A stretch of 64,000 bases of DNA, from assembly GCF_003429565.1 (NCBI RefSeq), contig NZ_QUAK01000005.1, positions 1 through 64,000 on the forward strand. The letters run 5' to 3'. Each line of letters begins with the position of its first letter. The first letter of the stretch is position 1. A program made the position numbers and the translations under genes. Of the stretch, positions 5,421 through 51,002 are shown piece after piece. The DNA is from Streptomyces triticagri. Its GTDB lineage: Bacteria; Actinomycetota; Actinomycetes; Streptomycetales; Streptomycetaceae. The notes below the pieces were generated by a model. It saw nothing but the letters and a program-made list of their open reading frames with translations, was not told the origin of the DNA and did no database searches.

Positions 5421-6689
5421 TTACCGATCACCGTGCGGATCTCCGTGCGGATCGCCGTGCGCGCCCGGGCCCACCTCCACGACGTCGCCGATCACGATGA
5501 CGGCCGGCGGCCTGACCTCTTCGCGTACGACGGTCTCGGCGACGGTTTCGAGGGTGGCGTCCACCCGGCGCTGGGCGGCCGTCGTGCCCTCCTGGACGAG
5601 GGCCACCGGTGTGCTCGGGGCGCGCCCGCCCGCGACCAGGGCCGCGGCGATCGCGCCGATCTTGTCGACGCCCATCAGGACGACGAGTGTGCCGCGCAGC
5701 CGGGCGAGCGCGGGCCAGTCGACCAGGGAGCGCTCGTCGTCCGGTGCCACATGTCCGCTGACCACGGTGAATTCGTGTGCCACCCCGCGGTGGGTGACCG
5801 GGATGCCGGCGGCGCTCGGCACGCTGATGGAGCTCGAGATGCCGGGCACCACGGTGCAGGGGATGCCGGCCTCGGCGAGTGCCTGGGCCTCCTCCATGCC
5901 GCGTCCGAAGACGAAGGGGTCGCCGCCCTTGAGGCGTACGACGGCCCGGCCGGCCTTGGCGTGTTCGATCAGGGCGTTGTTGATGGCCTCCTGGGCCATG
6001 AAGCGGCCGTACGGGATCTTCGCGGCGTCGATCACCTCGACGTGCGGCGGGAGTTCGGCGAGCAGGTCGCGGGGGCCGAGGCGGTCGGCGATCACCACAT
6101 CGGCCTCGGCGAGCAGGCGCCGGCCGCGGACGGTGATCAGGTCGGGGTCCCCCGGGCCCCCGCCGACGAGCGCGACCCTGGGTCCTTCGGGTGCCGTGCG
6201 GTGCTGCGGAGCCACCAGGGTGCCGTCGCGCAGGCCCTCCACCACGGCGTCCCGTACGGCCGCGGTGTGGCGCGGGTCGCGCTCCGCGAGCTCGGTGGTG
6301 AGCACGGCCACGGTGACGCCGGAGGTGTGGCCGGTGGCGGGGGTCAGGGCGGTGGCGACGTCCGCGTTGTCGCTGCGGACGCACCAGACCCGGTGGGCCT
6401 CGGCCTCCGCGGACGCGCGGGCGTTCGCCTCGGGGTCGCCGGTGGCGATCAGGGCGTACCAGGCGTCGGTCAGGTCGCCGTCGGCGTACCGCCTGCGGTG
6501 CCAGGTCAGTTCGCCCGCGTCCGCCATCGCCTCCACCGAGGGGGTCGCGGACGGTGATACGAGGACCACGTCGGCGCCGGCCGCGAGCAGGGCGGGCAGG
6601 CGGCGCTGGGCCACCTGTCCGCCTCCGACGACCACGACGCGGCGGCCGGCGAGACGGAGTCCTACGGGGTAGGCGGGGTGTGCTGCCAT
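5421..6689 (-). CDS. cysG: Fused siroheme synthase: precorrin-2 dehydrogenase + uroporphyrinogen-III C-methyltransferase
   Basis: 422 residues from the ATG at 6689. Residues about 8-110 form the NAD-binding precorrin-2 dehydrogenase domain (GRRVVVVGGGQVAQRRL). The SAM-dependent methyltransferase domain (about 165-405) has the classic SUMT motifs VALVGGGPGDPDLIT, VIADRLG and RLKGGDPFVFGRG. The enzyme turns uroporphyrinogen III into precorrin-2 and on to sirohydrochlorin, feeding both siroheme and the cobalamin pathway of the neighbouring cob genes. A chelatase domain as in enteric CysG is not obvious beyond the dehydrogenase part. The C-terminus ends in three copies of HGDP/HGDR from a 12-nt repeat. 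A pair of palindromes precedes it. Confidence 0.9.
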   Translation of the reverse strand: MAAHPAYPVGLRLAGRRVVVVGGGQVAQRRLPALLAAGADVVLVSPSATPSVEAMADAGELTWHRRRYADGDLTDAWYALIATGDPEANARASAEAEAHRVWCVRSDNADVATALTPATGHTSGVTVAVLTTELAERDPRHTAAVRDAVVEGLRDGTLVAPQHRTAPEGPRVALVGGGPGDPDLITVRGRRLLAEADVVIADRLGPRDLLAELPPHVEVIDAAKIPYGRFMAQEAINNALIEHAKAGRAVVRLKGGDPFVFGRGMEEAQALAEAGIPCTVVPGISSSISVPSAAGIPVTHRGVAHEFTVVSGHVAPDDERSLVDWPALARLRGTLVVLMGVDKIGAIAAALVAGGRAPSTPVALVQEGTTAAQRRVDATLETVAETVVREEVRPPAVIVIGDVVEVGPGAHGDPHGDPHGDR

Positions 6690-6831
6690 GGCGGTGGGGC
6701 TCCCGGTGCGGCTGGGCTGCTGCTGCCGCTGCGACGGTGGAGCGGCTCTTGACGTGCGGTGACGGGGTGTGGGGGTGCGGGTCCACGATACGGCGCGGGG
6801 GCGGCGAGGTCTTACCCGGTACGCGTCCGTG

Positions 6832-6908
6832 CGTGGTCGTGCTCCACGCGCGCGTGGAGCACGACCACGGACGGTTCTCACCCCTCACACGCGCGCGTGG
6901 AGGGGTGA
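6832..6908. repeat. 38-bp perfect palindrome plus second hairpin between cobT and cysG
   Basis: 6832-6869 is a perfect, loopless palindrome (19-bp arms beginning CGTGGTCGTG). Nine bases on, 6878-6908 forms a second stem: TCACCCCTC (6878-6886) pairs with GAGGGGTGA (6900-6908) around the self-complementary CACGCGCGCGTG (6888-6899), with one bulged A at 6887. Both share a CACGCGCGCGTGGAG core. They follow the cobT stop codon (6974) and precede cysG (6689). A transcription terminator or processing signal is the simplest reading, although no T-tract follows. A protein-binding site is the alternative. Confidence 0.85.
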
Positions 6909-6973: not shown

Positions 6974-9900
6974 CTACTTCTCGGTGACGCCGGCCGAGTC
7001 GAAGGTGGCGACCTCGTGCATCACGCGCGCGGCGCTCTGCACGATCGGCAGTGCGAGAAGCGCGCCGGTGCCCTCGCCGAGGCGCAGGTCCAGGTCGACC
7101 AGCGGACGCAGGCCGAGCTTGGTCAGTGCGGCGACATGGCCCGGTTCGGCGCTGCGATGGCCGGCGACGCACGCGGCGAGCACCTCGGGGGCGATCGCCC
7201 GGGCCACCAGTGCGGCGGCTCCGGCGCTGACTCCGTCCAGGATCACCGGCGTACGCAGCGAGGCGCCGCCCAGCAGCAGGCCCACCATCGCGGCGTGCTC
7301 GAGCCCGCCCACCGCGGCCAGCACGCCGACGGGGTCGGCCGGGTCCGGCTTGTGCAGGTCGAGAGCACGGCGTACGACATCGACCTTGCGGGCGTGCATC
7401 TCGTCGTTGATGCCCGTGCCGCGGCCGGTGACCTCGGCCGGGTCGGTGCCGGTGTACACCGAGATGAGGGCCGCCGACGCGGTGGTGTTGGCGATGCCCA
7501 TCTCGCCGGTGAGCAGGGCCTTGTTGCCGGCCGCCACCAGGTCGCGGGCGGTGTCGATGCCCACCTCGATCGCGGCCTTCACCTCTTCGCGGGTGAGCGC
7601 GGGACCGGTGGTCATGTCGTTCGTACCGGCCCGGATCTTGCGCGGCAACAGGCCCGGTGTGGCCGGGAGTTCCTCCGCCACGCCGACGTCGACGACACAG
7701 ACCTCGGCTCCGACCTGGTGGGCGAAGGCGTTGCAGACCGCGCCGCCGCCGAGGAAGTTGGCCACCATCTGGCCGGTCACCTCCTGGGGCCAGGCGGTCA
7801 CGCCCTGGGCGTGCACACCGTGGTCCCCCGCGAAGATCGCCACGGCCGCGGGCTCGGGCACCGGGGGCGGGCACATCCGGGACAGGCCGCTGAGCTGCGC
7901 GGAGATGATCTCCAGCATGCCGAGGGCACCGGCCGGCTTGGTCATCCGCTTCTGGCGCTCCCATGCCTCGCCGAGCGCCTTCGCGTCCAGCGGGCGGATG
8001 TTGCCGATGGTCTCGGCGAGCAGGTCGTGCGGCTCCTCGCCGGGCAGCGCACGCCTGCCGTACGTCTCCTCGTGCACCACCCAGGACAGCGGGCGGCGCT
8101 TCGACCAGCCGGCGGAGAGGAGTTCGGGCTCCTCGGGGAACTCCTCGACGTAGCCGACGCAGAGGTACGCGACCACGTCGAGGTGCTCGGGCAGGCCGAG
8201 CGTGCGCACCATCTCACGCTCGTCGAAGAAGCTGACCCAGCCGACGCCGAGGCCCTCCGCGCGGGCGGCGAGCCAGAGGTTCTCCACGGCGAGGGCCGAG
8301 GAGTACGGCGCCATCTGCGGCTGGGTGTGGCGGCCGAGGGTGTGCCGGCCGCCGCGGGTGGGGTCGGCGGTGACGACGATGTTGACGGGGGTGTCGAGGA
8401 TGGCCTCGATCTTGAGTTCCTTGAACTGCTTGGCGCGGCCCTTGGGCAGGGACTTGGCGTAGGCGTCCCGCTGACGCATGGCGAGTTCGTGCATGGTGCG
8501 CCGGGTCTCGGCGGACCGGATCACGACGAAGTCCCAGGGCTGCGAGTGGCCGACGGAGGGCGCGGTGTGCGCTGCTTCGAGGACGCGCAGGAGCACCTCG
8601 TGCGGGATGGGGTCGCTGCGGAAGCCGTTGCGGATGTCGCGGCGTTCGCGCATGACGCGCTGCACGGCGGCGCGTTCGGCCTCGTCGTAGCCCGGGGCGG
8701 GGGCGCCTGCCTGGGCGGGGGCCGGCTGCGGCACGGAGTGCTCGCCCGTCGGCCGGCCGGGCTCGGCGGCGGCGGAGGGGTGCTGCGGGGCGTGTGTCTG
8801 GGGGGTGTTCACGTGCTCTCCGGCCTTCGGGTTCTGAGGGGGCGACCCGTCGGCTCGCGGGCCGTCGGCCGAATCGTTCGGCAGCGTCGCTCGGTTGCCG
8901 GCCGCCGCGCCCTGATCACCCTCGCGCGGGGCGGGCACGGCGGCCTCGGGTTCCTCGTGCAGTTCGATGGGCGGTACGACGAAGGGCACCGACTGCGCGG
9001 AGATCTCGTCGCCGAAGGTGGCGGGGCGGTCCGGGACTGGGGCGGGGGCGGCCGCGGGTGCGGGGGTCGGGCTCTGGGCCCCGGGCGCGTGTGCGGCCGG
9101 GGTTTCGGTCCGTACGTCCGCGGGGCGGGGGCTCGGTGCCTCCTGTGGGGCACCGGGCGGGGCGGGTGCCAGGTGTGGGTCGGTCGGCACCTGGCCGTCG
9201 GTCTCGGCGAACTCGCCCATGGGCAGCGGGTCTTGAGGCGTCGGGGCGGGGCCGCGGGAGGTCGATGTTCCGTCCTGGGGAGCGGGTGCGCCCTGCGCCG
9301 CGGCGGCGGGCGCGGCCGCGTGGGGGTGGGGTGCGTCGTCGGAGGACGTGGCCTGGACGGGGCTCGGCCCGTCGTCGGGTACGGCCACTGCCGGCGCGGG
9401 CCGGGATGCCTCGCCAGGAGGCGGTACGTGAGTGGCGTGCGCGGCGGCGCCGGGAAGCGGGGCCTGACCAGTCGCAACCGGCCCGCCGGGCGCGACAACG
9501 CCATCCGCCGGCAGGGCTTCGCCGGGAGCGGCGCCCTCGGCCGGCTGGGTAGCCTCCGCGGCGCCGACGCCACGAGGAAGCTGCGCCGCGCCGTCAACCG
9601 GAACCGATCCGTCGGTCGGCGCGACCGCACCGACCGACGCAGGATCGGTCGCGGACGGCGCCTCTCCGGAGGCAGTCACCTCGCCGGACCGGGAGTCCTC
9701 GCCGCCCGTCGCGGCCTCGCTCGTCGGCGACGCCCCATCCACCGGAACCGGTCCGCCGGACCGCTCGGCCTCGCCGGTCTGTGCCGCCTCGTCGAAGAGT
9801 TCGGCCTCGTCGGCCTTGTTCGGCCCGCCGCGTCGTGCGGCCTCGTCGGCCGATTCAGCCGCTCCGGCGTGCGATGCCTCGTCGGCCGCAGCACCCTGGC

Positions 9901-12900
9901 TGGGGGCCTCCGCGGGGGCGCCGTCGGTGAGCGGCGCCCCATCAGACTGCCCGCCGGAAGGCGCGGCGCCGCCGGCCGACGCAGAATCACCCGCGAGCGG
10001 CGCCTCACCAGTCCGCGAGCCCTCACCCGTTACGGCCTCGCCGGCAAGCAACACCCCACCGGCCGGAACCAGCCCGTCGGACCCTGCGACCACGCCGGCC
10101 GACGCAGAATCACCCACGAACGGCGCCTCGCCGGGCGCAGCCGACCCGCCGGATGCGGCCACCCCAGCGGCCGACGGCCCGTCACCAGGCGTAGCACCGT
10201 CACCGGTCCGGGCCGCCTCGCCGGTCGCGAGCTCGCCGGGAAGCAACGGCTCACCAACCGGAGCCGGTCCTCCGGAACTTCCGGCTCCACCGGTCGGAGC
10301 AAGCCCATCCTCGGGCGGCGCCTCACCGGGCTGTGCGGCCACCGAGTCGGCAGTACCAGGGAGCGACGCCCCGTCGACCGGAGCGGTCTCGCCAGGAGGC
10401 AGCGGCTCGCCGGCCGCGGTGGTAACACCCGGAGTCGTGGCGCCGCCGGCCGGCACGGTCCCCGCAGGCGGGTACGAGTTGCCCGGAACGGGCGACCCCT
10501 CGGACGGAGCCGGTTGGCCGGGCCGTGATACTGCACCCGACTCGACGCCCTCGCCGGGCTGGGACGCCTCACCGACCGGGGCAGCCCCACCAGCAAGCGG
10601 TGCCTCGCCGATCGGAACGGGCCCGCCGGGCCGAGGAGCCTCGCCGGACGATGCGGCCTCGCCGGACGATGCGGCCTCGCCGGACGATGCGGCCTCGCCG
10701 GTCGCCATGACCTCTGCGGGCGCCATGCCCTCTGCGGTCGCCGTGATCTCGCCGGTCGGGGCCGCATCTCCGGGACGGGACGGCGACCCGCCGACCGGGG
10801 CGGTGTCACCGGTGAGTGACGTCTCGTCGAGCGAGTCCGGCCCGCCGGGCCGAGCAGCCTCGCCCGTGAGCGGCGACGCATCGGCCGGGGTGCTCACGCC
10901 TGGACGCGCCGCCCCATCCCCCGGCACGGGCCCGTTCGGCCCGGTTGCCTCGGTGGCCGTGACGCCACCCTGGTCGATCGGGGCGGCCGACGGCGTCGTG
11001 GTGTCGGCCGCAGCGCTGCCCGGATCGGTGTCCGGCGCCGAGGCTGCCTGTCGCGGGTCGGCTGAGGTCGGCTGAGGCTGGACGGAATCGGGCCGGGTTG
11101 TCGCCCCCGTGGAAGCACCGTTCTGCGCAGCACCGGCCTGAGCGGCACCGGTCGCGGGCGACGCGGCCTCGGTGGGCGGGCCCGCATCCGTAGGCGATAC
11201 GACACCGTGCGGGTGGTGGTGAGCCCCGCCGGCCGCTGGTCCGTGCGGCTGCGGGGCCTGAGAACGTACCGCCGGCTGCGGCTGCACGATCCGGCGACGG
11301 CGCCCGGTGCCGGCCTTCGGCGCCGGAGTCGGCGTGAGCGCCTGGGCGGGATCGGCGATCCGCTGCTCCTGGTCGGTGGTCGGAAGCCGGTCGGGCTGCC
11401 CCTCGGTCTCGGGCAGTTGTGCGCCTACGGCTTCGGGGCCGGCCGGCGCCGACTGCTGCGCGGAAACCGTGGCCGGGGTCTCGGACGAGGTAGGGATGTG
11501 CTGCTCGTCCGCCGCCCCGACCCGCACCGTGGCGGGCGCCCCTGCCGAAGCGGGCCGGGCGGCCGGCGGCTGCCCACCGGTTGTCCCCTGCCCACCGGTT
11601 GCCCCCTGCCCTTCGATCGCCGACGCGATCGAGGTCGCCTGGCCCCCGGCCGCCGGGTCGGCGACCGTTTGTGCGACGCCACCGTTCCGCGCCACACCGG
11701 TGTCGTTCTGCTGCGCGCCGGCGGCCGGCTGCCCGGCGCTCACCGCGTCCCCCGCACCGCCGGCATCCACCTGGCCTTGCGGTGCCCCGCCGGGCTGCTG
11801 GGCCACATCGGCGGCAGTCTGCCGCGCGTCACTCATGCCTGCCGCCCCGTGAGCGGCGGCCGTCACCGGTCCGGCCTGCGCCGGAGCGGCCTGCGCCGGA
11901 GCGACCTGCGCCGGCTCTCGCACGGCGGTCTCGTGGACCGCGTCCGGTGCGGACTGCGTGCCCTCCGCGGCCGCCGAGGCACCGCTCGGCGTCTGCGGCC
12001 GGGCACCTGGCCCGTTCGCTGCCGGGTCGCCCTGGCCGACCGCATCGCCCTGCGTGCGCTCGTGTCCGGCGCCCTCGGAGCCGCCCTGACCGTCCGCAGG
12101 CCCCGGGGCGACTGGGCCGGCCGCTCCGGTCTGCACCACACGCTGCACGGCCGACAGCGCGGCATCCGCGGCGAGCGCCTGCCGGCCCGCCGCATCCTCG
12201 GCGCCGCCCGGCTCGGAGCCCGCGCCCCCGGCCGCCTCCATGGACGGACCCGCCTGGTCCGCCACCCGGCCACGCTGCAGGGAAACGCCTCGCGACGGCG
12301 CGACGCCGCTCGGCCCCGGCGACACCGCGGCCATCTCGGCGGCATCCTGCGGAGCGTTCTGCTCAGGGACGACCGTTTCTGCGGGAGCAGTCACCGGACC
12401 GCCGGAAGGCATGACCGCATGCTCGGGAGACATCACCGGATAGTTCTGCACGGGCGCCCAGGGAGCGGCACCCAGGGGCGGAATCGTCCCCAACTGCGGC
12501 CCGGGCATCGGCGCCTCGTGCGGCGGTACGTCCAGATACTCCGGCCCACCGGCCGTCGCGTCCGCACCGGGTACGGCCGGTGCGTCACCGGCCCACGCAT
12601 CACCGGCCGACCCATCACCGGCCGGGACGCCACCGCCCGCGACACCAGGCACCGGTCCGCCCGTCACCACCGGCCCGCCGACGCCACCAGCGCCGGCTCC
12701 GACACCCACGGGCCCCTGCCCGGCACCCGGCACCGCCACAGCCTGCGCCGAAGAAGAAGCCACCGACGGCGCCGCCGCAGGCCCCCGATCGGCCAGCGAA
12801 CGCACCGGGCTCCCCGCGCCCGTGGAACCGGGAACGGGCGGACCCATGTGCAACGGCCGCCGCACGGGCGCGCCCTGAGCCTGCCGTTGTCCGTCCTGCC

Positions 12901-13336
12901 CCACCGCCGAAGGCTCCGGCGCGGCGGGCACGCCGCCCCGGGCACTCCCCGAACCGTGCACACCCGCACCCACCACGTCGTACTGCCCGGACGCCGCACC
13001 GGGATGCCCAAGGGCCCCCGCGTCTCCGCCGCCGGATCGCACCGCGCCCAGGTCGAGGGATCCGCTGTCGCGCCCCGACTCCTCGTGCGCACCGGCCACC
13101 GGCGCCCCGGGCCCGGGAACAGCGGCCGCCGCCTGCGGATCCGCCAGGTGCGTCTCGGCCCACGCCCCCTGCGCGCCCGGCATCAGAAACAGATCGTCGT
13201 CCTCGCCCGCCGGAGCGCCGCCCGTACCGGGAACGTCCCGCATGGTGTACGCACCCGGGATGTCCGTGCCCGGCTGCTCCACCGTGCCCGCGTCCTGAGG
13301 CAGTCCCTCGCCCGGGACCTGGCCGGTGTCGGTCAT
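6974..13336 (-). CDS. cobT: Giant fusion: disordered N-terminus + BluB-type nitroreductase + CobT
   Basis: 2120 residues from the ATG at 13336, with GAGGGG 7 nt upstream. Residues 1 to about 1549 are low-complexity Ala/Pro/Gly/Glu-rich sequence, including long runs of xxxGEAxxxG units. About 1550-1760 is a flavin nitroreductase-like 5,6-dimethylbenzimidazole synthase domain (RRDIRNGFRSDPIP, APSVGHSQPWDFVVI), which makes DMB from FMNH2. About 1765-2120 is nicotinate-nucleotide:DMB phosphoribosyltransferase (GDHGVHAQGVTAWPQEVT, GMGIANTT-like EMGIANTTASAAL, catalytic-Glu region LRLGEGTGALL), which makes alpha-ribazole phosphate. Two consecutive steps of the lower cobalamin ligand are thus in one polypeptide. 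Streptomyces CobT proteins often carry Pro-rich N-termini, but this one is exceptionally long. The extension's role is unknown. Confidence 0.9.
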   Translation of the reverse strand: MTDTGQVPGEGLPQDAGTVEQPGTDIPGAYTMRDVPGTGGAPAGEDDDLFLMPGAQGAWAETHLADPQAAAAVPGPGAPVAGAHEESGRDSGSLDLGAVRSGGGDAGALGHPGAASGQYDVVGAGVHGSGSARGGVPAAPEPSAVGQDGQRQAQGAPVRRPLHMGPPVPGSTGAGSPVRSLADRGPAAAPSVASSSAQAVAVPGAGQGPVGVGAGAGGVGGPVVTGGPVPGVAGGGVPAGDGSAGDAWAGDAPAVPGADATAGGPEYLDVPPHEAPMPGPQLGTIPPLGAAPWAPVQNYPVMSPEHAVMPSGGPVTAPAETVVPEQNAPQDAAEMAAVSPGPSGVAPSRGVSLQRGRVADQAGPSMEAAGGAGSEPGGAEDAAGRQALAADAALSAVQRVVQTGAAGPVAPGPADGQGGSEGAGHERTQGDAVGQGDPAANGPGARPQTPSGASAAAEGTQSAPDAVHETAVREPAQVAPAQAAPAQAGPVTAAAHGAAGMSDARQTAADVAQQPGGAPQGQVDAGGAGDAVSAGQPAAGAQQNDTGVARNGGVAQTVADPAAGGQATSIASAIEGQGATGGQGTTGGQPPAARPASAGAPATVRVGAADEQHIPTSSETPATVSAQQSAPAGPEAVGAQLPETEGQPDRLPTTDQEQRIADPAQALTPTPAPKAGTGRRRRIVQPQPAVRSQAPQPHGPAAGGAHHHPHGVVSPTDAGPPTEAASPATGAAQAGAAQNGASTGATTRPDSVQPQPTSADPRQAASAPDTDPGSAAADTTTPSAAPIDQGGVTATEATGPNGPVPGDGAARPGVSTPADASPLTGEAARPGGPDSLDETSLTGDTAPVGGSPSRPGDAAPTGEITATAEGMAPAEVMATGEAASSGEAASSGEAASSGEAPRPGGPVPIGEAPLAGGAAPVGEASQPGEGVESGAVSRPGQPAPSEGSPVPGNSYPPAGTVPAGGATTPGVTTAAGEPLPPGETAPVDGASLPGTADSVAAQPGEAPPEDGLAPTGGAGSSGGPAPVGEPLLPGELATGEAARTGDGATPGDGPSAAGVAASGGSAAPGEAPFVGDSASAGVVAGSDGLVPAGGVLLAGEAVTGEGSRTGEAPLAGDSASAGGAAPSGGQSDGAPLTDGAPAEAPSQGAAADEASHAGAAESADEAARRGGPNKADEAELFDEAAQTGEAERSGGPVPVDGASPTSEAATGGEDSRSGEVTASGEAPSATDPASVGAVAPTDGSVPVDGAAQLPRGVGAAEATQPAEGAAPGEALPADGVVAPGGPVATGQAPLPGAAAHATHVPPPGEASRPAPAVAVPDDGPSPVQATSSDDAPHPHAAAPAAAAQGAPAPQDGTSTSRGPAPTPQDPLPMGEFAETDGQVPTDPHLAPAPPGAPQEAPSPRPADVRTETPAAHAPGAQSPTPAPAAAPAPVPDRPATFGDEISAQSVPFVVPPIELHEEPEAAVPAPREGDQGAAAGNRATLPNDSADGPRADGSPPQNPKAGEHVNTPQTHAPQHPSAAAEPGRPTGEHSVPQPAPAQAGAPAPGYDEAERAAVQRVMRERRDIRNGFRSDPIPHEVLLRVLEAAHTAPSVGHSQPWDFVVIRSAETRRTMHELAMRQRDAYAKSLPKGRAKQFKELKIEAILDTPVNIVVTADPTRGGRHTLGRHTQPQMAPYSSALAVENLWLAARAEGLGVGWVSFFDEREMVRTLGLPEHLDVVAYLCVGYVEEFPEEPELLSAGWSKRRPLSWVVHEETYGRRALPGEEPHDLLAETIGNIRPLDAKALGEAWERQKRMTKPAGALGMLEIISAQLSGLSRMCPPPVPEPAAVAIFAGDHGVHAQGVTAWPQEVTGQMVANFLGGGAVCNAFAHQVGAEVCVVDVGVAEELPATPGLLPRKIRAGTNDMTTGPALTREEVKAAIEVGIDTARDLVAAGNKALLTGEMGIANTTASAALISVYTGTDPAEVTGRGTGINDEMHARKVDVVRRALDLHKPDPADPVGVLAAVGGLEHAAMVGLLLGGASLRTPVILDGVSAGAAALVARAIAPEVLAACVAGHRSAEPGHVAALTKLGLRPLVDLDLRLGEGTGALLALPIVQSAARVMHEVATFDSAGVTEK
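10638..10691 (-). repeat. Three perfect copies of an 18-bp tandem repeat inside cobT
   Basis: Units at 10638-10655, 10656-10673 and 10674-10691 are identical, and a partial fourth follows. On the coding strand they encode tandem GEAASS units at about residues 882-900 of the low-complexity region. Being a multiple of 3, the unit can expand or contract without breaking the frame, which offers a route by which the N-terminus may have grown. Confidence 0.9.
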
Positions 13337-13793
13337 GCGTACCCCTCGCCCATTGGTCGTGCTCCACTCTCGGCCGACTCGCCCGGGGCGGCTCGGCGGC
13401 CACCCATGGACAAGAACGAGCGTGCGCGCCGTGCGGCACGAACATCCCGTCTCCAAGACGCCGAAGCGCCATGACGACAAAGCGCCAGAACGCCCGAACG
13501 CCAAGGCCATTGTTGTGGCCGCACCAGCATCACAACGGAAGATCCGTCACGACCCCGTTGTGGGCTGCGCCACGTCGCGCGTCCCCCGGCCGCTGCCGTA
13601 CCACAGTCACCCCAAATCGGGCGCACTTTCCGGGTCATTGACGTACGAAACGACGAACGCCCGGGAGTAGTACAACGATCGGCCAGCCTACCGCGCGCGC
13701 CCGGCGAGCAAGGTCACGGGGCGACGGCCCACCCGCACGAGGGGCCCTCATCCGGCGCGGACCGCGGCGGTGGCGGAGCGCGGCGCGGCCCGA
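13337..13793. other. 457-bp intergenic region upstream of bluB-cobT
   Basis: Lies between the cobL stop (13794) and the giant cobT start (13336), both minus strand, so it must hold the cobT promoter or a long 5' leader. I looked for the B12-box and conserved helices of a cobalamin riboswitch on both strands and saw none. Several repetitions of GGCGTT/GGCGCTT-like words occur at about 13450-13510 on the minus strand. No convincing -35/-10 pair or gene was found. Confidence 0.5.
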
Positions 13794-14999
13794 TCAGGAG
13801 GCGGGCCGGTCCAGTTGGGCGGAGATCAGGAAGGCGATCGAGCGCTCTCGCTCGGTCCAGACGCGGGTGTCCAGTTCCACGGACTGCAGCAGGGCGCACT
13901 CGACGACGTACCCGTGCTCGCCGAGGTCGCGGCCGATCAGCTCGGCCTCGTCGCGGGTGGCGGCATGCGTCACGATCCGCTCGGGGCGCCGGTCGGCCAC
14001 GGCCGCGACGACCGGTGCACCGCCGCCGCCGACCCGTACGACGTCGGGTTCCGGCAGGTCCTCGAGCACATGCGGGGCGCTGCCGTGCACGACCTGGAGC
14101 TGCACGCCGAAACGGCGGGCGGACGCGGTGGTGCGGCCGCAGGTGTCGGCGTCCCGGTCGACCGCGATCACCGCGGCCCCGAAGCGGGCGGCCTCCACGG
14201 CGAATGCGCCGACGCCGCAGCCGATGTCCCAGACGAGGTCGCCGACGCGGGGGCCGAGGCGGGCCAGTTGGGCGGCTCGGAGCCGTTCGTTCTCGCCCTC
14301 GCCGGTGCCGCCGCCGTAGGCCTCGGCGGGCAGCGCCCAGCCGCGCGGCTTGGCTCCGGGGTCGCGGCCGGCGATCCAGCCGGTCTCGGCGGCCACCGGG
14401 CCACCGATGACGATGACCACGTTGGGGTCGCGCCAGGTGTGGTCGGCGGCGCTGTCGGAGGTGATGACCGTGACCTGCTCGCGTTCGGTGCCGAGTTCTT
14501 CGCAGACCACGAAGGTGCGGTGCACACCGGCGAGCAGCAGGGCGAGTTCGGCGGGTCCGGCGCCCGGTGAGGTGAGGACGGCGACCTTGGTGTGGGCGCG
14601 GCAGACGTTGACCGCGCGGCGCAGAGTGCGGCGGTGGGCGGACACGACCTGCGCGTCGTCCCACGGCATTCCGGCCCGGGCGAAGGCCTGGGCGACGGAG
14701 GACACGGCGGGTACGACCTCGACCTCGAGACCGTGCTCGGGGGCCCGCAGGGTGCGGACGACGCCGAAGAAGCCGGGGTCGCCGTCGGCGATGACCACGG
14801 CGGTGCCGCGGTGGGCGGCGATCCTGCGGGCGGCGAGCCCGACGCTGCCGAGCCGTACGCGCTCGGCGTGTGCGGGGACTTCGGGCAGATCCAGGTGGTG
14901 TGCGGCTCCGGCGACGAGGGTGGCGGCGCCGAGCGCCGCGCGTGCCGCCTCGGTCAGCGGCGGTCCGTCCCAGCCGATCACCGTCACCCGGTCGGCCAT
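13794..14999 (-). CDS. cobL: Precorrin-6Y C5,15-methyltransferase, decarboxylating (CbiE-CbiT fusion)
   Basis: 401 residues from the ATG at 14999. The N-terminal CbiE half (about 1-200) is a tetrapyrrole methylase with GWDGPPLTEAARAAL, the SAM-loop ADGDPGFFGVVRTL and PAVSSVAQAFARAG. The C-terminal CbiT half (about 215-390) is a class I SAM methyltransferase with motif I VWDIGCGVGAFAVEAARFG and AVDRDAD. Together they methylate C5 and C15 and decarboxylate the ring in corrin formation. Its place beside cobT and cysG fits a cobalamin cluster, although the remaining cob genes are not in this window. Confidence 0.9.
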   Translation of the reverse strand: MADRVTVIGWDGPPLTEAARAALGAATLVAGAAHHLDLPEVPAHAERVRLGSVGLAARRIAAHRGTAVVIADGDPGFFGVVRTLRAPEHGLEVEVVPAVSSVAQAFARAGMPWDDAQVVSAHRRTLRRAVNVCRAHTKVAVLTSPGAGPAELALLLAGVHRTFVVCEELGTEREQVTVITSDSAADHTWRDPNVVIVIGGPVAAETGWIAGRDPGAKPRGWALPAEAYGGGTGEGENERLRAAQLARLGPRVGDLVWDIGCGVGAFAVEAARFGAAVIAVDRDADTCGRTTASARRFGVQLQVVHGSAPHVLEDLPEPDVVRVGGGGAPVVAAVADRRPERIVTHAATRDEAELIGRDLGEHGYVVECALLQSVELDTRVWTERERSIAFLISAQLDRPAS

Positions 15000-40814: not shown

Positions 40815-41357
40815 TCAGACCCGGTCGAGCGGCCGGTGCGGGCCGGCCGGAAGCTCCGCCACCACGGCGTCGCCCGGGTGCACCACTCCCCCGTCCACGA
40901 CGACGCTCATGATGCCGGCCTTGCGTACGACACCACCGCTGCCGTCCCGCCCCACGACCTGCTTGAGCAGTCCGTCCTGGAAGGCGTCGATCTGCCGACA
41001 GGGGTTGCGCAGCCCCGTCACCGCCACGACCGCCTCCGGGCCGATGCGCAGCAGGGTGCCGGCCGGCAGGCCGAGCAGGTCGATCCCGCGGGTGGTGATG
41101 TTCTCGCCGAGGGCGCCGGGCGCCACGTCGAATCCGGCGGCCGCGACCTCGGCGAAGAGTTCCTCGTGAAGGAGGTGGACCTGCCGGAGGTTCGGCTGGG
41201 TGGGGTCCTTGGCGACCCGCGAGCGGTGCTTGACGGTGACTCCGGCGTGTACGTCACCGTCCACGCCGAGGCCGGCGAGGAGAGTGATCCGCTCCCGGTT
41301 CGGCTTGGTGAACGAGTACGCGCCGTTGCTGCTGACCGCGGTGACTGTCCCGTCCAT
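40815..41357 (-). CDS. MOSC domain protein (YiiM-like)
   Basis: 180 residues from the ATG at 41357. It consists of one MOSC domain: GAYSFTKPNRERITLLAGLGVDGDVHAGVTVKHRSRV, LRQVHLLHEELFAEV, ALGENITTRGIDLLGLPAGTLLRIG and the conserved Cys in VVAVTGLRNPCRQIDAFQDGLLK, the likely molybdenum ligand. Unlike the larger MOSC protein at 3515-4402 it lacks the N-terminal beta-barrel, which fits the YiiM type acting on N-hydroxylated compounds. No partner is adjacent. Confidence 0.88.
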   Translation of the reverse strand: MDGTVTAVSSNGAYSFTKPNRERITLLAGLGVDGDVHAGVTVKHRSRVAKDPTQPNLRQVHLLHEELFAEVAAAGFDVAPGALGENITTRGIDLLGLPAGTLLRIGPEAVVAVTGLRNPCRQIDAFQDGLLKQVVGRDGSGGVVRKAGIMSVVVDGGVVHPGDAVVAELPAGPHRPLDRV

Positions 41358-41410
41358 GCCCGAAGCCCCCTCCGTCGCACCGTACCGGTCACCGGCGACC
41401 CTACCTCCGG

Positions 41411-42223
41411 TCAGCCGGCGGGTGGCCGGGCGATGATGCCGAACGCGGTGCCGAGCGGATCGACGATCTCGGCCGTGCGCCCGTACGGCGAATCGATGAC
41501 CGCACCGGCCTCGCCGCCCGCGGCACGCGCGAGCGCCGCCGAGCGGTCCGCGTCCGCCACCTCGAACACGGTGTGCCAGGCGGCCTGTTCGGCACCCGGG
41601 TTCCCGAAGATGCCGCCGATCTCGTGTCCGTCCGGGCGGCGCAGAAACGTGAAGTCGAAGTCCGGCAGATCGTCGTTGCGGTCCAGGGTGTACGTGAAGA
41701 CCTCCGGGTAGAACGCCCGGGCGGGGCCGGCGTCGGGGGTGACGAGGTCCTGGCGGACCAGCGAGTCCGGTTCGTTCACCAGCTCGCAGCCCGGGGACCG
41801 GCGTCCCTGCCACAGTCCGAACTCGGCGCCCTGCGGGTCGACTACGAGGGCGAGGCGGCCCAGGTCGTCGACCTCGTGCGGGCCCTCGGTGAGGCTTCCG
41901 CCGGCCGCGACGGCGCGCGCGGACGCGGCGTCGCAGTCGTCCGCCGCAAAGTACATACGCCAACGGCGGGGATTTGGCGGGCTGTTGAGCTGTCCCTGGC
42001 CGGGGCTCCCACCGGTGGCGCCGGCCGTCGGCCTGAATCCGGCGACGGCACCGCCGCGGAGCAGACACGTGACATGTCCGGGCCCCCGTTCGGGACTCGC
42101 GCGGAACTCCCAGCCGAACAGCGAACCGTAGAAGTCCTGTGCCCGCTCGGTCTCGTCGCCGGACAGGTCGAGATCGATCCAGGTGGGGGTGCCGTCGGGC
42201 TGGTTCACGTCGATGACGCTCAT
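41411..42223 (-). CDS. Two-domain VOC/glyoxalase-like protein
   Basis: 270 residues from the ATG at 42223. Modules at about 10-140 (TPTWIDLDLSGDETERAQDFYGSLFGWEF ... VVDPQGAEFGLWQ) and about 145-265 (VTPDAGPARAFYPEVFTYTLD ... IVDPLGTAFGIIARP). It is paralogous to the protein at 33494-34261 but carries an insert of about 15 residues in the first module (AGATGGSPGQGQLNSPPNPRR). No regulator is next to it; the ribosome site is weak. Confidence 0.85.
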   Translation of the reverse strand: MSVIDVNQPDGTPTWIDLDLSGDETERAQDFYGSLFGWEFRASPERGPGHVTCLLRGGAVAGFRPTAGATGGSPGQGQLNSPPNPRRWRMYFAADDCDAASARAVAAGGSLTEGPHEVDDLGRLALVVDPQGAEFGLWQGRRSPGCELVNEPDSLVRQDLVTPDAGPARAFYPEVFTYTLDRNDDLPDFDFTFLRRPDGHEIGGIFGNPGAEQAAWHTVFEVADADRSAALARAAGGEAGAVIDSPYGRTAEIVDPLGTAFGIIARPPAG

Positions 42224-42316
42224 GGTGGGTCGCCCTTTCAGGGGTGCCGCGGGTGGTTGCCGTATGCGCACCATAGGAAGTAAGTAGGACCGCTTCCGGC
42301 CGCTTTCGCGCGGGCC

Positions 42317-43513
42317 TCACGAGTTTCGCCCGCGCGGCAGCAGCGCTGCGGCGCTCAGTGCGGCGAGTGCGTGGACGCCGGCCGCGACGAGGAGTGCGGC
42401 GGGCAGGGAGAGGGCCGCCAGGGCGCCGGCCGCGGCGGCGCCGCAGGAGTATCCGGCGAGTTTCAGACTTGCTCCCGTGGTGAAGATCTGCGCGCGCAGT
42501 CCGGCCGGTGCGCATCGGTGCCGGATCGCGAACAGGGCCGCGAGCTGCGGCCCTTCGGCCGCTCCGGCGAGCAGCGCGGCCACGATCACGGCGACCGGGT
42601 CGAGTACGGCGGCCAGGCTCATGGCCGCCGCGAGCACCAGCGGGGCGCCCACCAGGATGCGGGGCGGGCGCAGCAGTCGGGGCCGGCGGGCGAGCAGCGC
42701 ATTGGCGGCCAGCGCGGGCACGGCCGTGGCGGCGATGAGCAGCACGCCGTGCGGCGCCGCGCCGAAGACCCGCACGCCGAGCAGTGGAAGGCAGGCGACG
42801 AACAGCCCTTCCGCGGCGCAGCTCAGCGTGGAGGACAGGGCGGCCCCTGCCAGCGCCCTGCTCCGCCGCAGGGCCGCGAACCCTGCCGCGAGGTCGCGTA
42901 CGAACCCGCGCGTCCGTTGCCGCGGGACGACGCCGGGCTGCGCGTCGGCTCGCGGTCGCCCGCCTCCCGTCCCCCAAGTCGCCGATGAGGCGGCGCAGAT
43001 GAGGAGGGCGGCCGAGGTGAGGCCGGCCACCGCGCCGAACCGGGCGGCGACGAGTCCGGCGAGAGCGGGGCCGGCCAGGCTCGCCACGTGGAATGTCATC
43101 GCGTCCACGGTCGCGGCCCGATCCAGGCGTCCTGACGGTACGACCAGGGGCAGTTGCGAGGTCCAGCCGCCGGAGAGGGCGGGGCCGAGCAGCCCGGCAG
43201 CGACGGCCATGAGCAGCGCGCCCGCGTACGTGGCACCGAGCACGGGGGCCACCACGGCGAGGGCCGCGCCGTGGCCGAGCACCGCCAGGCCGAGGAGGCG
43301 TCCTGGCGCGGGCGAGCGGTCGAGGAGCGTGCCGAGCACCGGCCCGCCGACCGCGGCCGCGGCTGTGGCTCCCGCGAGCAGCGTGCCCGCGGCCGGCGCG
43401 GATCCGGTGACCGCGAGTCCGGCGAGGAGCAGGGCCGGGCCCGACATCTCGTCTCCGACGCGAGCGAGCGTGGCGCCGGCGACGTAGCGCGGCCACGGGT
43501 AACGCAGGATCAT
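42317..43513 (-). CDS. MFS transporter
   Basis: 398 residues from the ATG at 43513, no clear Shine-Dalgarno sequence. Twelve hydrophobic segments in an Ala/Gly/Leu-rich background, with a motif-A-like loop after helix 2 (GTLLDRSPAPGRLLG) and a central basic loop (RADAQPGVVPRQRTRGFVRDLAAGF). It resembles small actinobacterial drug-efflux MFS members. It is divergent from a CGNR-type regulator 57 bp away, its probable controller. Confidence 0.82.
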   Translation of the reverse strand: MILRYPWPRYVAGATLARVGDEMSGPALLLAGLAVTGSAPAAGTLLAGATAAAAVGGPVLGTLLDRSPAPGRLLGLAVLGHGAALAVVAPVLGATYAGALLMAVAAGLLGPALSGGWTSQLPLVVPSGRLDRAATVDAMTFHVASLAGPALAGLVAARFGAVAGLTSAALLICAASSATWGTGGGRPRADAQPGVVPRQRTRGFVRDLAAGFAALRRSRALAGAALSSTLSCAAEGLFVACLPLLGVRVFGAAPHGVLLIAATAVPALAANALLARRPRLLRPPRILVGAPLVLAAAMSLAAVLDPVAVIVAALLAGAAEGPQLAALFAIRHRCAPAGLRAQIFTTGASLKLAGYSCGAAAAGALAALSLPAALLVAAGVHALAALSAAALLPRGRNS

Positions 43514-45818: not shown

Positions 45819-47255
45819 TCACCGCAGCGTCTGTTCGCAGGCCGCCGCGAGCCGCCGTACGCCTTCGCCGATCTCCGCCACCGAGCCGAGGAAGGCGAAG
45901 CTCAGGCGCACATGCCCGGCCGTCGGTTCCGCGCAGAAATACGGGCGCCCCGGTGTGATCGCGACACCGGCGCGGAGTGCTGCGGAGACCAGAGCGGCCT
46001 CGTCCGCGCCGTCCGGCAGCCGTGCCCAGAGATGAAAGCCGCCGGACGGCACATGGGTGGGGGCGAGCGCCGGCAGATCCCTGAGCAGCGCGGTGACCAT
46101 GGTGTCCCGCCGCTGCCGCAGCTCTCCCGCCACCGTGCGCAGATGCCGGTCCCAGGCGGGGGATCCGACGAGCTCCACCGCCGCCTCCTGCAGCGGCCGC
46201 GGCACGAAGAACTGCTCGACGATGTGGATCGCGCGAAGACGTTCCAGCACGGGCCCGCGGGCCACCAGGGCGCACACCCGGAAACTGGGCGAGGTGGCCT
46301 TGGTGAGGGAGCAGACGTGCACCACCACTCCGTCGGGGTCCTCCGAGATGAGCGGTGGCGGCAGCTCGCCCGCGTCGTCATGGGCGAGCCGCCGTACGAA
46401 GTCGTCCTCGATCACGAAGGCGCCGGCCGCCCGCGCGATCCGGACGACCGCACGGCGCCGGTCGGCCGCGAGCACGGCGCCGGTCGGGTTCTGGAACAGC
46501 GGCTGGCAGACGAAAACCCGCGCCCCGGTGGCCCGGAAGGCGGATTCGAGCAGTTCGGGGCGTACGCCGTCGGTGTCCACCGGCACGGGCACCGGCCGCA
46601 GCCCGGCGGCCCGCGCGATCGCCAGCATCCCGGGGTACGTCGGCGATTCGACGAGCACATGGGCACCGGGCGGAGCGAGGGCGCGCAGCGCGGTGGTGAG
46701 GGCCGACTGGCCGCCCGCCGTGATCAGCACCTCGGCCGCGGTGACGGCCCCTCCGCAGCCGCGCGCGAACCATTCGCGCAGCTCCGGGACACCGTCGGTG
46801 GGCGGGCGCCCCCAGGCGCCGGGCCGGCGGCCGGCGCGGGCCAGCGCGGTGGCCATGGCGCGCTCGGGCTGCAGCACGGGATGCAGATAGCCGCCGTTGA
46901 ACTCGATGACCCCGGCGGGCTGCGCGGCCAGATTGACCATGACTCCGGTGGCGTCGACGGACCGCGGCATCAGGTCGTTGCTGGAGTCGGCGCTCAGCGC
47001 CAGCTCCTGCCAGGAGGTGTCCCCGGCCGGATCCGCGGCGGCTCGCGGCTCGGCGCGGAAGGCGCCGGCGCCGGGCCGGGTGACGACGAGCCCCTCGGCG
47101 ACCAGCTGCGCGAGGGCACGCGACACGGTGACCGGACTGACCCGATACGTCTCCACGAGGGCCCTGCTGGACGGCAGCTTCCCACCCGGTGAGTAGCGGT
47201 TCACCTCCGTCCGCAGGATCTGCGCCAGTTGGGCCACACTGCTACTCTCGTGCAT
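45819..47255 (-). CDS. MocR-type GntR/aminotransferase transcriptional regulator
   Basis: 478 residues from the ATG at 47255. The winged helix (about 7-70) reads SRALVETYRVSPVTVSRALAQLVAEGLVVTRPGAGAF. The fold-type I PLP domain (about 115-478) contains LITAGGQSALTTALRAL, VESPTYPGML, CQPLFQNPTGAV, VIEDDF and the PLP-Lys in SLTKATSPSFRVCALV. MocR proteins use PLP chemistry to sense amines or PLP itself. The start codon overlaps that of the divergent DMT transporter, and a 14-bp palindrome at 47265-47278 lies 10 bp upstream. A -10-like TATCCT 8 nt before the ATG suggests a leaderless transcript. Confidence 0.92.
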   Translation of the reverse strand: MHESSSVAQLAQILRTEVNRYSPGGKLPSSRALVETYRVSPVTVSRALAQLVAEGLVVTRPGAGAFRAEPRAAADPAGDTSWQELALSADSSNDLMPRSVDATGVMVNLAAQPAGVIEFNGGYLHPVLQPERAMATALARAGRRPGAWGRPPTDGVPELREWFARGCGGAVTAAEVLITAGGQSALTTALRALAPPGAHVLVESPTYPGMLAIARAAGLRPVPVPVDTDGVRPELLESAFRATGARVFVCQPLFQNPTGAVLAADRRRAVVRIARAAGAFVIEDDFVRRLAHDDAGELPPPLISEDPDGVVVHVCSLTKATSPSFRVCALVARGPVLERLRAIHIVEQFFVPRPLQEAAVELVGSPAWDRHLRTVAGELRQRRDTMVTALLRDLPALAPTHVPSGGFHLWARLPDGADEAALVSAALRAGVAITPGRPYFCAEPTAGHVRLSFAFLGSVAEIGEGVRRLAAACEQTLR

Positions 47256-48207
47256 GACAGCAGAGGATAGCGCTATCCAGACCAGGTCGATAGCGGTGAC
47301 GGACGATCCCCCCGTGGCGGCCGCCCTGAGCCCCGACCCCCGCCGACCGACCCCACGGGCGGCCACCGTCCAGGCCGCACTCGGTGTCACCGCCTTCTCG
47401 CTGACCTTCCCCGCCACGGCCTGGGGCCTCGAAGGCTTCGGTCCCTGGTCCCTGGTGACCGTGCGCAGTGTGCTCGCCGCTGTGATCGCGGGTGCCTGTC
47501 TGCTCGCCCTGCGCGTCCCGCTGCCCTCGCGGGCCCACTGGGGCGGCCTCGCGGTGGTCGCGGCCGGCGTCGTACTCGGCTTCCCCATGCTGACCACCCT
47601 GGCCCTGGAGACCTCGACGACCTCCCATGCCGCGGTCGTGGTGGGGCTGCTGCCGCTGACCACCGCGGTGTTCTCCTCGCTGCGGACCGGCGCCCGGCCC
47701 TCGCGGGTCTTCTGGGGCGCCGCGCTGGCCGGCGCGGCCGTGGTGATCGCCTTCACGGTCGGGCAGAGCGGCGGTGCACTCACCACGGCGGATCTGTATC
47801 TGTTCGCGGCACTGCTGATCTGCGCGGCCGGGTACACGGAGGGCGGGCGCCTGGCGCGTGTGATGCCGGGGTGGCAGGTCATCGGCTGGGCGCTGGTCGG
47901 CTGTCTGCCGCTGGTGGTGCCCGGGGCGGTGGTGGCACTCGCCTTCGAGCCGGTGCAGCTGACCGCGCACAGTGTGACCGGGCTGCTCTGGGTCGCCGCC
48001 GGCTCCCAGTTCCTCGGCCTGGTCGTCTGGTACCGGGGGATGGCGACGATCGGGGTGCCACGGGCCAGCCAGCTGCAGCTGGCGCAGCCGCTGCTCACGC
48101 TGGTCTGGTCGGTGCTGCTGCTCGGTGAGGACCTGGGCGCCGCGGCTCCGCTGACCGCACTCGCCGTCCTGGTGTGCATCGCGGTGACGCAGCGGTCGCG
48201 CGGTTGA
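47254..48207 (+). CDS. DMT-superfamily (EamA) transporter
   Basis: 317 residues if it starts at the ATG at 47254, whose bases overlap the divergent MocR start codon; a GTG at 47296 (VTDDPPVAAAL) is an alternative lying beyond the palindrome. About ten hydrophobic helices in two EamA repeats, e.g. FPATAWGLEGFGPWSLVTVRSVLAAVIAG and the second-half ASQLQLAQPLLTLVWSVLLLGEDLG. The family exports amino acids, amines or metabolites. Its pairing with a MocR regulator is common and suggests the exporter's substrate is sensed through PLP chemistry. Confidence 0.88.
   Translation: MTAEDSAIQTRSIAVTDDPPVAAALSPDPRRPTPRAATVQAALGVTAFSLTFPATAWGLEGFGPWSLVTVRSVLAAVIAGACLLALRVPLPSRAHWGGLAVVAAGVVLGFPMLTTLALETSTTSHAAVVVGLLPLTTAVFSSLRTGARPSRVFWGAALAGAAVVIAFTVGQSGGALTTADLYLFAALLICAAGYTEGGRLARVMPGWQVIGWALVGCLPLVVPGAVVALAFEPVQLTAHSVTGLLWVAAGSQFLGLVVWYRGMATIGVPRASQLQLAQPLLTLVWSVLLLGEDLGAAAPLTALAVLVCIAVTQRSRG
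47265..47278. promoter_or_regulatory. Palindromic operator between MocR and DMT genes
   Basis: GGATAGCGCTATCC is a perfect 14-bp palindrome. A further half-site GATAGCG lies at 47289-47295. The palindrome lies inside the first codons of the DMT gene if that starts at 47254, and upstream of MocR. It is the obvious MocR binding site, probably autoregulatory. Confidence 0.75.
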
Positions 48208-48339
48208 GGGTCGCCGAAGGGGTATGACGGAGGCGTACGGGGAGCCGTTCGGGGCCTGTTCCGCCGGGTCCCGGTGGGCGTCCCGGCCGTAGAATTGCGG
48301 CACGTACCGCTCCCCGTTCGAACGAGGAGGTCACGTCCC

Positions 48340-48525
48340 ATGGAAGCAGCAGTGGGCGACCGGCTCCTGGTGCACGGCCGCACCGTCGGACAGCACGACC
48401 GGATCGCCGAGGTCGTCGAAGTGCTCGGCGACGACGGCACTCCCCCGTACCGGGTCCGCTTCGAGGACGGCCATGAATCGGTGATGTCCCCGGGGCCGGA
48501 CACCGTCGTCAGGCATCCCGAGTAG
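48340..48525 (+). CDS. DUF1918 small protein
   Basis: 61 residues from the ATG at 48340 (GAGGAGG 10 nt upstream). The sequence MEAAVGDRLLVHGRTVGQHDRIAEVVEVLGDDGTPPYRVRFEDGHESVMSPGPDTVV fits DUF1918, an SH3-like small barrel frequent in actinobacteria. Role unknown; nucleic-acid or protein binding is only a guess from the fold. Confidence 0.88.
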   Translation: MEAAVGDRLLVHGRTVGQHDRIAEVVEVLGDDGTPPYRVRFEDGHESVMSPGPDTVVRHPE

Positions 48526-48604
48526 CTCCGGCAGGAGCCCCGCCGGATCAGTCGGTCCCGGCGGCCCGGGCGCTGTCCGGGCCGCCGGGCCGAGCCGGTA
48601 CCGG

Positions 48605-49852
48605 TCAGCGCGGCGGGCGCACCGGCCTGAGGTAGTGGTCCCGTACGACCCGGGCCATCGCATCCGTCGGGTCCTGGGCGATCTCCGTGCCGGAGAAGTA
48701 CGCATGCCCGCGCACTTCGGGGAAGTCCTTGGCCAGGGTGAGGTGCCGGGACAGTTCGGCCGGGTCCTGCCAGGGCTCGGGCTGCTCGGGATCGCCGGCC
48801 TTGTAGAGCGCCTCGCCGACGACCAGCTGGACGCCGGTGCCCCGTACGGTCTCGGCCCACCAGGGCAGCAGCTTGGCGTAGTCGGCCGCCTCGAAGCCGA
48901 TGTTCCAGTACAGCTGGGGCGCGATGTAGTCGATCCAGCCGTTGCGGATCCACTGGCGGGTGTCGGCGTGCAGGTCGTCGTAGGTCTGCACGCCGGCGGT
49001 GGTGTCCGAGCCCTCCGGGTCGGTGGCCTTGTTGCGCCAGACGCCGAACGGGCTGATGCCGAAGCGCACACCCGGGCGCTCGCGCCGGATCCGTTCGGAC
49101 ATCTCGCACACCAGCCGGTCCGTGTTGTCCCGGCGCCAGGCGGCCTTGTCGGGGAAGCCCGCGCCGTAGCGCCGGTACGTGGCGTCGTCGTCGAAGACCT
49201 CGCCCTCGACGGGATACGGGTAGAAGTAGTCGTCCCAATGCACCGCGTCGATCGGGTAGCGCCGCACCGCGTCGAGCATCGCGTCCTGGACGAAGCGGCG
49301 GACCGCCGGGATCCCCGGGTCGTAGTAGAGCTTCCCGCCGTACGGCAGCACCCAGTCGGGGTGCACGCGGGCGGGGTGGTCGGGTGCGAGCTTGCCCGGA
49401 TCGGTGTGAAGGGCGACACGGTACGGGTTGAACCAGGCGTGCAGTTCGAGTCCGCGCCGGTGGGCCTCCTCGACGGCGGTGCCGAGCGGGTCCCAGCCCG
49501 GGTCGCGGCCCTGCGTGCCGGTGAGCACATCGGACCAGGGCTCGTACGGCGAGGACCACAGGGCGTCCGCGGTCGGGCGGACCTGGAGGATCACCGCGTT
49601 GAGCCGGCGGTCCACCGCGGTGTCCAGGAAGCCCGTGAGCTCTGCCCGCTGCTGTTCGGCGCTCTGCCCCGGCGCCGTCGGCCAGTCCCGGTTGTCGACA
49701 CTCGCCAGCCACATCCCGCGGAACTCCGAGTGGCCGGTCGCCGGGCCCGGGACCTGCGGCCGGCGGGCCCCCGCGGCCGCGTCTCCGGCCGTCGCGATCC
49801 CGGTCAGCGCGGCCGCCGCGGCGACCGTGAAGCCCCTGCGCGTCATACGCAC
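48605..49852 (-). CDS. Secreted GHL10/DUF187-type glycoside hydrolase-like protein
   Basis: 415 residues from a GTG at 49852, favoured because AAGGGGG ends 8 nt upstream; an ATG at 49846 is the alternative. The signal sequence MTRRGFTVAAAAALTGIATA has a twin-arginine motif (RRGFTV). The GHL10 barrel shows HSEFRGMWLASVDNRDWP, LNAVILQVRPTADALWSSPYEPWSDVLTG, LELHAWFNPYRVA, IDAVHWDDYFYPYP and YIAPQLYWNIGFEAADYAKLLPWWAE. The family is related to YngK and acts on cell-wall or polysaccharide substrates. The precise linkage is unknown. Confidence 0.88.
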   Translation of the reverse strand: MRMTRRGFTVAAAAALTGIATAGDAAAGARRPQVPGPATGHSEFRGMWLASVDNRDWPTAPGQSAEQQRAELTGFLDTAVDRRLNAVILQVRPTADALWSSPYEPWSDVLTGTQGRDPGWDPLGTAVEEAHRRGLELHAWFNPYRVALHTDPGKLAPDHPARVHPDWVLPYGGKLYYDPGIPAVRRFVQDAMLDAVRRYPIDAVHWDDYFYPYPVEGEVFDDDATYRRYGAGFPDKAAWRRDNTDRLVCEMSERIRRERPGVRFGISPFGVWRNKATDPEGSDTTAGVQTYDDLHADTRQWIRNGWIDYIAPQLYWNIGFEAADYAKLLPWWAETVRGTGVQLVVGEALYKAGDPEQPEPWQDPAELSRHLTLAKDFPEVRGHAYFSGTEIAQDPTDAMARVVRDHYLRPVRPPR

Positions 49853-50960: not shown

Positions 50961-51002
50961 CCCGCACGAACGGCATCCGGCCGGCTCGCTCCGGTCGAAC
51001 GC

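Follow-up and report, generated by a model that had tools for sequence, protein, structure and literature searches.

The closest described counterpart of the protein considered here is the BluB/CobT2 fusion of Propionibacterium freudenreichii, in which BluB is followed by CobT in one chain, as in the present protein, and which is reported to make 5,6-dimethylbenzimidazole (DMB), to activate it and to be active when purified (PMC4657239). That protein has 626 amino acids and carries no extension of the kind described below; a one-line remark in the same source mentions, for Streptomyces griseus, additional N-terminal sequence whose function is given as unknown. Stand-alone BluB (PDB 2isj) and CobT (PDB 1d0s, 1wx1) are homologous to the corresponding domains of the present protein over nearly their full length, but they are unfused and lack an extension.

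The window analysed here, a stretch of 64,000 nucleotides of Streptomyces triticagri (contig NZ_QUAK01000005.1, positions 1 to 64,000), carries on its reverse strand at 6974-13336 one open frame of 2120 codons and a stop, which encodes a BluB-CobT fusion preceded by a low-complexity N-terminus of 1549 residues (73% of the protein). Comparison with related loci indicates that this extension is very probably real protein and that it begins with short motifs which recur across the family Streptomycetaceae, followed by an acidic linker of widely varying length. The reading favoured here, to which we give about an even chance of being right, is that a conserved docking head on a hypervariable acidic leash recruits BluB-CobT to a partner. 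The fusion is already known; the disorder, the motifs, the taxonomic range and the length variation of the extension were not found described in the open-access literature searched.

Methods

A total of 141 loci were compared, comprising the window, 60 loci selected to cover a range of lengths and genera, and the 80 best from a second set of 586; loci with short flanks were excluded. The two sets of loci overlap (L042 and L193 are an identical frame), so that n is not a species count. The N-terminal heads were located by profile, as an earlier count by regular expression had missed diverged heads. The 127 loci in which head and BluB lie in one open frame form the base for the counts of composition, motifs and length. 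Ratios of nonsynonymous to synonymous substitution rates (dN/dS) were calculated by the Nei-Gojobori method for 22 of 30 selected close pairs, with core nucleotide identities of 0.94-0.98.

Coding status of the N-terminal extension

BluB occupies residues 1550-1755 (TIGR02476, 299.8 bits against a cut-off of 150, model positions 1-205 of 205) and CobT residues 1784-2117 (TIGR03160, 414.4 bits against a cut-off of 319.3, model positions 2-334 of 334). Pfam agrees with NCBIfam on both domains, and the fusion recognised in the original prediction, which was made from the sequence alone, is thus borne out. The LGEGTGA of the CobT domain aligns to the GEGxGA segment of the PDB CobT chains, a segment which we take to hold the catalytic Glu. 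By homology, the core would make DMB and convert it into alpha-ribazole phosphate. At E <= 0.001, residues 1-1549 had no match in Pfam or in NCBIfam.

The long N-terminal part is very probably real protein because of its arginine composition, its start site, the continuity of its frame, its dN/dS and its recurring motifs. Summed over the 127 loci, the coding frame of the extension contains 2.0% Arg, 0.1% Lys and 0.0% Cys, whereas the other two frames of the same strand contain 29.3% and 27.9% Arg; in contrast to the extension, two other long open frames of the window contain 10-34% Arg upstream of their domains. A Shine-Dalgarno-like sequence, defined by a permissive pattern without a control, precedes the start codon in 126/126 loci with an identified start (none was identified in L076), and the 20-mer ending in ATG is identical in 91 of the 127 loci. 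Translation very probably starts at 13336, in agreement with the original prediction. A possible leader frame overlaps this start (Table 1); the exact MGEGYA leader is present in 66 of the 127 loci, and the overlap could serve translational coupling. Four loci of other genera (L078, L087, L091, L092) show a plain Shine-Dalgarno sequence in place of the leader.

A single open frame runs from head to BluB in 127 of the 141 loci, which corresponds to 127 of the 134 loci in which a head was found. The remaining 14 comprise six loci truncated at a contig end, five with head and BluB in different frames, two with an intervening stop and one that is headless. In L045, L053, L205, L079 and L168 a frameshift or stop, due either to sequencing error or to a real break, lies between the head and BluB in a region free of N runs. 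Programmed frameshifting was considered for the five loci with head and BluB in different frames and was rejected, as no shared site was seen.

The median dN/dS over the 22 pairs is 0.31 (0.08-0.93) for the first 110 residues and 0.51 (0.31-0.88) for the remainder of the extension, where the motifs M4 and M5 lie and where the ratio is below 1 in 22/22 pairs; the enzyme has a median of 0.08 (0.02-0.14). An assembly error in the repetitive DNA, earlier raised as a possible source of the length, is unlikely because comparable extensions of 1598 and 1632 residues are encoded in L047 and L048, which lie on contigs of 8.4 Mb.

Conserved motifs of the head

The first ~270 residues form a head of short conserved motifs (Table 1). 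The two N-terminal segments that had been judged conserved from the single sequence both recur across loci, as M1 and M2, and the P, Q and W of M2 are invariant across 29 segments. Motifs M3 to M6, the last of which lies nearer the enzyme, recur in 69-115 of the 127 loci; as these loci are related and the patterns were composed after inspection of their sequences, the shuffled controls show only that the motifs are not explained by composition. A further pattern, [YF]x[FY][LPQ], is found in 110 of the 127 loci and is absent from the window protein. The most distant genera (L076, L077 and L080) retain M2 and have a basic LPPRRQRR motif in common; VRSLADR is kept in L076 and L077, and L080 retains only SLADR.

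A search of the same genome with the M2 profile A1 (E <= 10) recovered only the present gene, which occurs on two duplicate contigs, and a single further place at a chance-level E of 1.27, located at the C-terminus of a frame resembling an aldo/keto reductase by eye. The possibility that the head acts as a signal on other proteins was rejected, since this own-genome search, made with the M2 profile only, gave no second real carrier. The first 299 residues had no match at E <= 0.001 among 72,556 plasmid records.

Composition, repeats and length of the linker

The next ~1280 residues form an acidic linker, almost without Lys and Cys. The original prediction had described a disordered N-terminus of about 1550 residues, with which the 1549 low-complexity residues agree; each block of the extension contains 77-86% disorder-promoting residues, and the disorder is deduced from composition only. 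The extension is net negative in 127/127 loci, with a median of -0.13 per residue, and runs of at least four R/K occur in nine of the 127 loci, from several lineages. None of four extensions examined has a membrane-like hydrophobic stretch; in that of the window protein the mean hydropathy over 19 residues is at best 1.45, and the cell-envelope association that had been suggested therefore draws no support from the extension itself.

The repeats of GEA type reported earlier correspond to a period of six residues for both Gly and Glu at residues 851-1330 (autocorrelation 0.38 each) and to short arrays with periods of 15, 18 or 36 bp detected by Tandem Repeats Finder (TRF). The comparison of lengths across relatives, proposed with the original prediction, gave 389-2470 residues between start and BluB (median 678), the window with 1549 being the fifth longest of the 127; the value of 2470, for L076, is counted from the first codon of the frame as no start was identified, and the next longest is 1733. 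The long extension of this gene is a family-wide trait and not an oddity of the strain, and this gene is a long version of it, apparently reached by repeat expansion. By core identity, on which all statements on lineages are based in place of a tree, the twelve nearest relatives of the window have 578-1187 residues. The long forms seem to have arisen repeatedly, with more than one origin, because the other very long members (L047 and L048; L076 and L077) have nearest relatives other than those of the window.

The best repeat periods in the long members differ (6, 12 and 28 residues, and weaker others, without a chance control), and one relative, L158, also shows the period of six. The excess length of the window includes the degenerate GEAxxx hexapeptide at residues 851-1330. 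Lineage-specific tandem duplication followed by decay fits these patterns and seems to be the way in which length has grown. A length that appears free within wide limits, together with a head that is kept, is the behaviour expected of a leash.

Taxonomic distribution

Of 295 genomes of the genus, 283 have a BluB that scores above the cut-off; in the family sample the figure is 148 of 150 genomes, covering 16 of 17 genera. The M2 profile A1 matched 101 of 119 genomes in the order sample (101/104 in the genus, 0/15 in other families) and 39 of 394 in the class sample (39/40 in the genus, 0/354 elsewhere). These two samples contained no other genus of the family, for which loci were read directly; 15 of 17 such loci carry an in-frame head. 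The exceptions are L079, in which the head was found with an intervening stop, and the headless L088, a short BluB-CobT fusion of 36% identity without head or linker, which may have been acquired by transfer. BluB also occurs in 80 genomes of the class sample that lie beyond the genus, where its open frames measure 217-1402 codons, and these were searched with the M2 profile only. The ancestor of Streptomycetaceae, or a lineage close to it, is thus the probable origin of this head.

Probable role of the extension

A docking element is suggested because the kept head sits on a free linker. The head would bind a partner and so keep the enzyme close to the site that uses alpha-ribazole phosphate, and the exact sequence and length of the linker would matter little. 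The recurrence of the motifs, the continuity of the frame, dN/dS below 1, the negative charge, the heads of other genera and the confinement of M2 to one gene all speak for this reading. From these we infer that the head has a binding partner, for which our leading guess is the late-B12 machinery anchored in the membrane (CobS, CbiB, CobU). A membrane-anchored late-B12 complex that includes CobT has been proposed, and CobS is described as a polytopic membrane protein which uses the alpha-ribazole phosphate from CobT (PMC8092220).

Several observations weigh against docking. Salmonella CobT is termed cytosolic in the same source (PMC8092220). The extension is not needed for catalysis, because the P. 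freudenreichii fusion, active when purified, and L088 lack such a part. The first 360 residues match no Pfam family at E <= 5, and M2 matches no PDB sequence at E <= 5. Seven of the 134 loci have a frameshift, stop or gap between head and BluB, two of them containing N runs, and the dN/dS of the head reaches 0.93 in one pair. A structure prediction for L170, the shortest full-length relative among the named genomes (960 amino acids, 40-sequence alignment), had a mean pLDDT of 43.5; scores were low for much of the known enzyme core too, in fact for most of it, so that the prediction is uninformative on docking.

The C-terminal linker and tip of FtsZ and the linker and acidic tip of SSB likewise present a conserved peptide on a hypervariable disordered linker. 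The outline is similar; these tails differ in being C-terminal and much shorter, in belonging to unrelated proteins and in having known partners. On the side of sequence the window protein shares the features of this class, namely a conserved peptide, a hypervariable linker and disorder by composition.

The alternative that the extension is mostly tolerated drift, in which minisatellites expanded a neutral spacer and the start region was kept for translation only, is considered unlikely. The differing repeat periods of the long members, for which there was no chance control, and the fairly relaxed linker dN/dS of 0.51 would agree with it, but drift leaves unexplained both the motifs at residues 88-269 and 1383 and the maintained charge bias. 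The doubt expressed in the original prediction that drift alone could account for such an extension was well placed, because the single frame in 127 of 134 loci, the linker dN/dS and the composition bias are not easily explained by pure drift.

It is quite unlikely that the enzyme is concentrated in foci by condensation or self-assembly, through multivalent weak contacts of its long acidic low-complexity region and with the motifs as stickers. Repeat-expanded low-complexity sequence with several spaced motifs would suit such a role. Aromatic and Arg residues, however, are the usual stickers, and they are scarce in the extension (Phe 0.7, Tyr 0.6, Trp 0.3 and Arg 2.0% over the 127 loci), and repulsion is favoured by the net negative charge that every one of the 127 chains has.

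The cysteine desulfurase of the Synechococcus Family 2 encapsulin likewise has a disordered, sparsely conserved N-terminus with short motifs before the enzyme, and Family 2 cargo can be loaded through such an N-terminus (PMC8049743). A corresponding loading of BluB-CobT into the Family 2 shell of Streptomyces would be consistent with the presence of the shell (PF19307) in 99 of 101 genomes of the genus, this one included, with the lack of BluB at E <= 1e-20 in the two shell-less genomes (G007 and G049, both fragmented drafts), and with a loose resemblance of the published cargo motif AASPYYFLDG (PMC8049743) to the [YF]x[FY]LD form of the head found in 60 of the 127 loci. However, G078 is without BluB and yet has two shell matches, the window protein lacks the YxFLD form, and GPTGLGT, PYYFLDG and LARLANEF, taken from the published cargo motifs GPTGLGT, AASPYYFLDG and LARLANEFFS, each occur in 0/127 loci. 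The cargo domain of the desulfurase differs further in its ~225 residues, its other motifs and its position adjoining the shell gene (PMC8049743); extensions of 389 to >1700 residues are far above the published 50-225, and the present gene lies between cobL and cysG, the shell gene being on contig C126. The N-terminus of the polyprenyl synthase adjacent to that shell is without head motifs by eye. Taken together, a cargo role appears very unlikely. An argument against cargo from patchy encapsulin presence was dropped, given the shells in 99 of 101 genus genomes. The shell gene of this genome (G000:C126:33002-33754, in L228) is of the Family 2B type, SrpI-like with a cNMP-binding domain, and adjoins a polyprenyl synthase.

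Production of the active enzyme by internal initiation or proteolysis, the long part being separate or minor, is very unlikely, since the in-frame GTG with a Shine-Dalgarno-like sequence that does exist 41 codons upstream of BluB, near the internal start at 8690 contemplated earlier, has some equivalent (-60 to +20 codons) in 66 of the 127 loci but control windows in the linker yield 45/127, 42 loci share one site at +11 that lies within the BluB homology, and the frame is continuous from head to BluB in 127/134.

Genomic context

The gene lies between two genes with CobL-like and CysG-like domain matches (Table 1), and in Streptomyces coelicolor cysG (SCO1553) and cobT (SCO1554) have adjacent locus numbers (PMC4991794). 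No Rfam element was found at gathering scores across the whole window, hence no known RNA element upstream of the gene. The same genome has a second, short CobT (G000:C55:7349-8341, L058) in an open frame of 405 amino acids. Over the 20,000 and 12,735 bases that were compared, contigs C185 and C196 of this genome (G000) match the window exactly, in opposite orientation, and the window region thus seems to be present twice in the assembly. Two other very long frames are present on the reverse strand of the window, one at 45819-51014 with a C-terminal GntR and aminotransferase part as its sole domain part and one at 40815-43496 with a MOSC domain at its C-terminus only; their Arg-rich upstream parts look like spurious read-through.

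Table 1. Features of the bluB-cobT locus and its neighbours (positions in the window)
Feature	Position	Strand	Evidence or remark
bluB-cobT fusion gene, long low-complexity N-terminus, 2120 amino acids	6974..13336	-	open reading frame and domain matches
Motif M1, MTDTGQVPGEGLP...VEQPG, residue 1	13265..13336	-	conserved across loci
Motif M2, EDDDLFLMPGAQGAW (acidic run, LLMP, Q, W), residue 45	13160..13204	-	122/127 loci, a count that is not independent as loci were chosen with the M2 profile
Motif M3, GRDSGS, residue 88	13058..13075	-	91/127 loci, 0.1 in shuffles
Motif M4a, PLHMGPP, residue 161	12836..12856	-	108/127 loci, 1.1 in shuffles
Motif M4b, VRSLADR, residue 178	12785..12805	-	115/127 loci, 0.0 in shuffles
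Motif M5, PEYLD, residue 265	12530..12544	-	91/127 loci, 0.1 in shuffles
Hypervariable linker, disordered by composition	8690..12529	-	composition, dN/dS
Basic patch RRRR (context GTGRRRR), residue 679	11291..11302	-	within the acidic linker
Linker segment, degenerate six-residue GEAxxx periodicity	9347..10786	-	autocorrelation, TRF
Motif M6, VPTDPHL, residue 1383	9170..9190	-	69/127 loci, 0.0 in shuffles
BluB domain (5,6-dimethylbenzimidazole synthase)	8072..8689	-	TIGR02476 and PDB chain alignment
CobT domain (nicotinate mononucleotide:DMB phosphoribosyltransferase)	6986..7987	-	TIGR03160 and PDB chain alignment
Possible 6-residue leader frame, MGEGYA-stop, containing Shine-Dalgarno-like GAGGGG	13333..13353	-	TGA overlaps the bluB-cobT ATG
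Upstream neighbour, CobL-like	13794..14999	-	domain matches, CbiE above and CbiT below its cut-off
Downstream neighbour, CysG-like (NAD_binding_7 and TP_methylase)	5421..6881	-	domain matches

Implications

In most of a bacterial family, an enzyme from an ancient metabolic pathway has an extension that often exceeds the enzyme itself in size, and in which the motifs are kept and the linker can vary freely. That Streptomycetaceae evolved a dedicated tether, with a conserved multi-motif head on a leash of up to more than 1700 residues, which recruits lower-ligand synthesis to the site of B12 assembly, be it a membrane complex, an encapsulin or a condensate, is a possibility to which we give a low probability; in that case the head could serve to pull down the late-B12 complex that has been proposed. 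Should the head dock to CobS, CbiB or another partner, this would provide a direct test of the membrane-bound late-B12 complex (PMC8092220). For B12 engineering in Streptomyces, constructs of the core only would omit a part that may place the enzyme.

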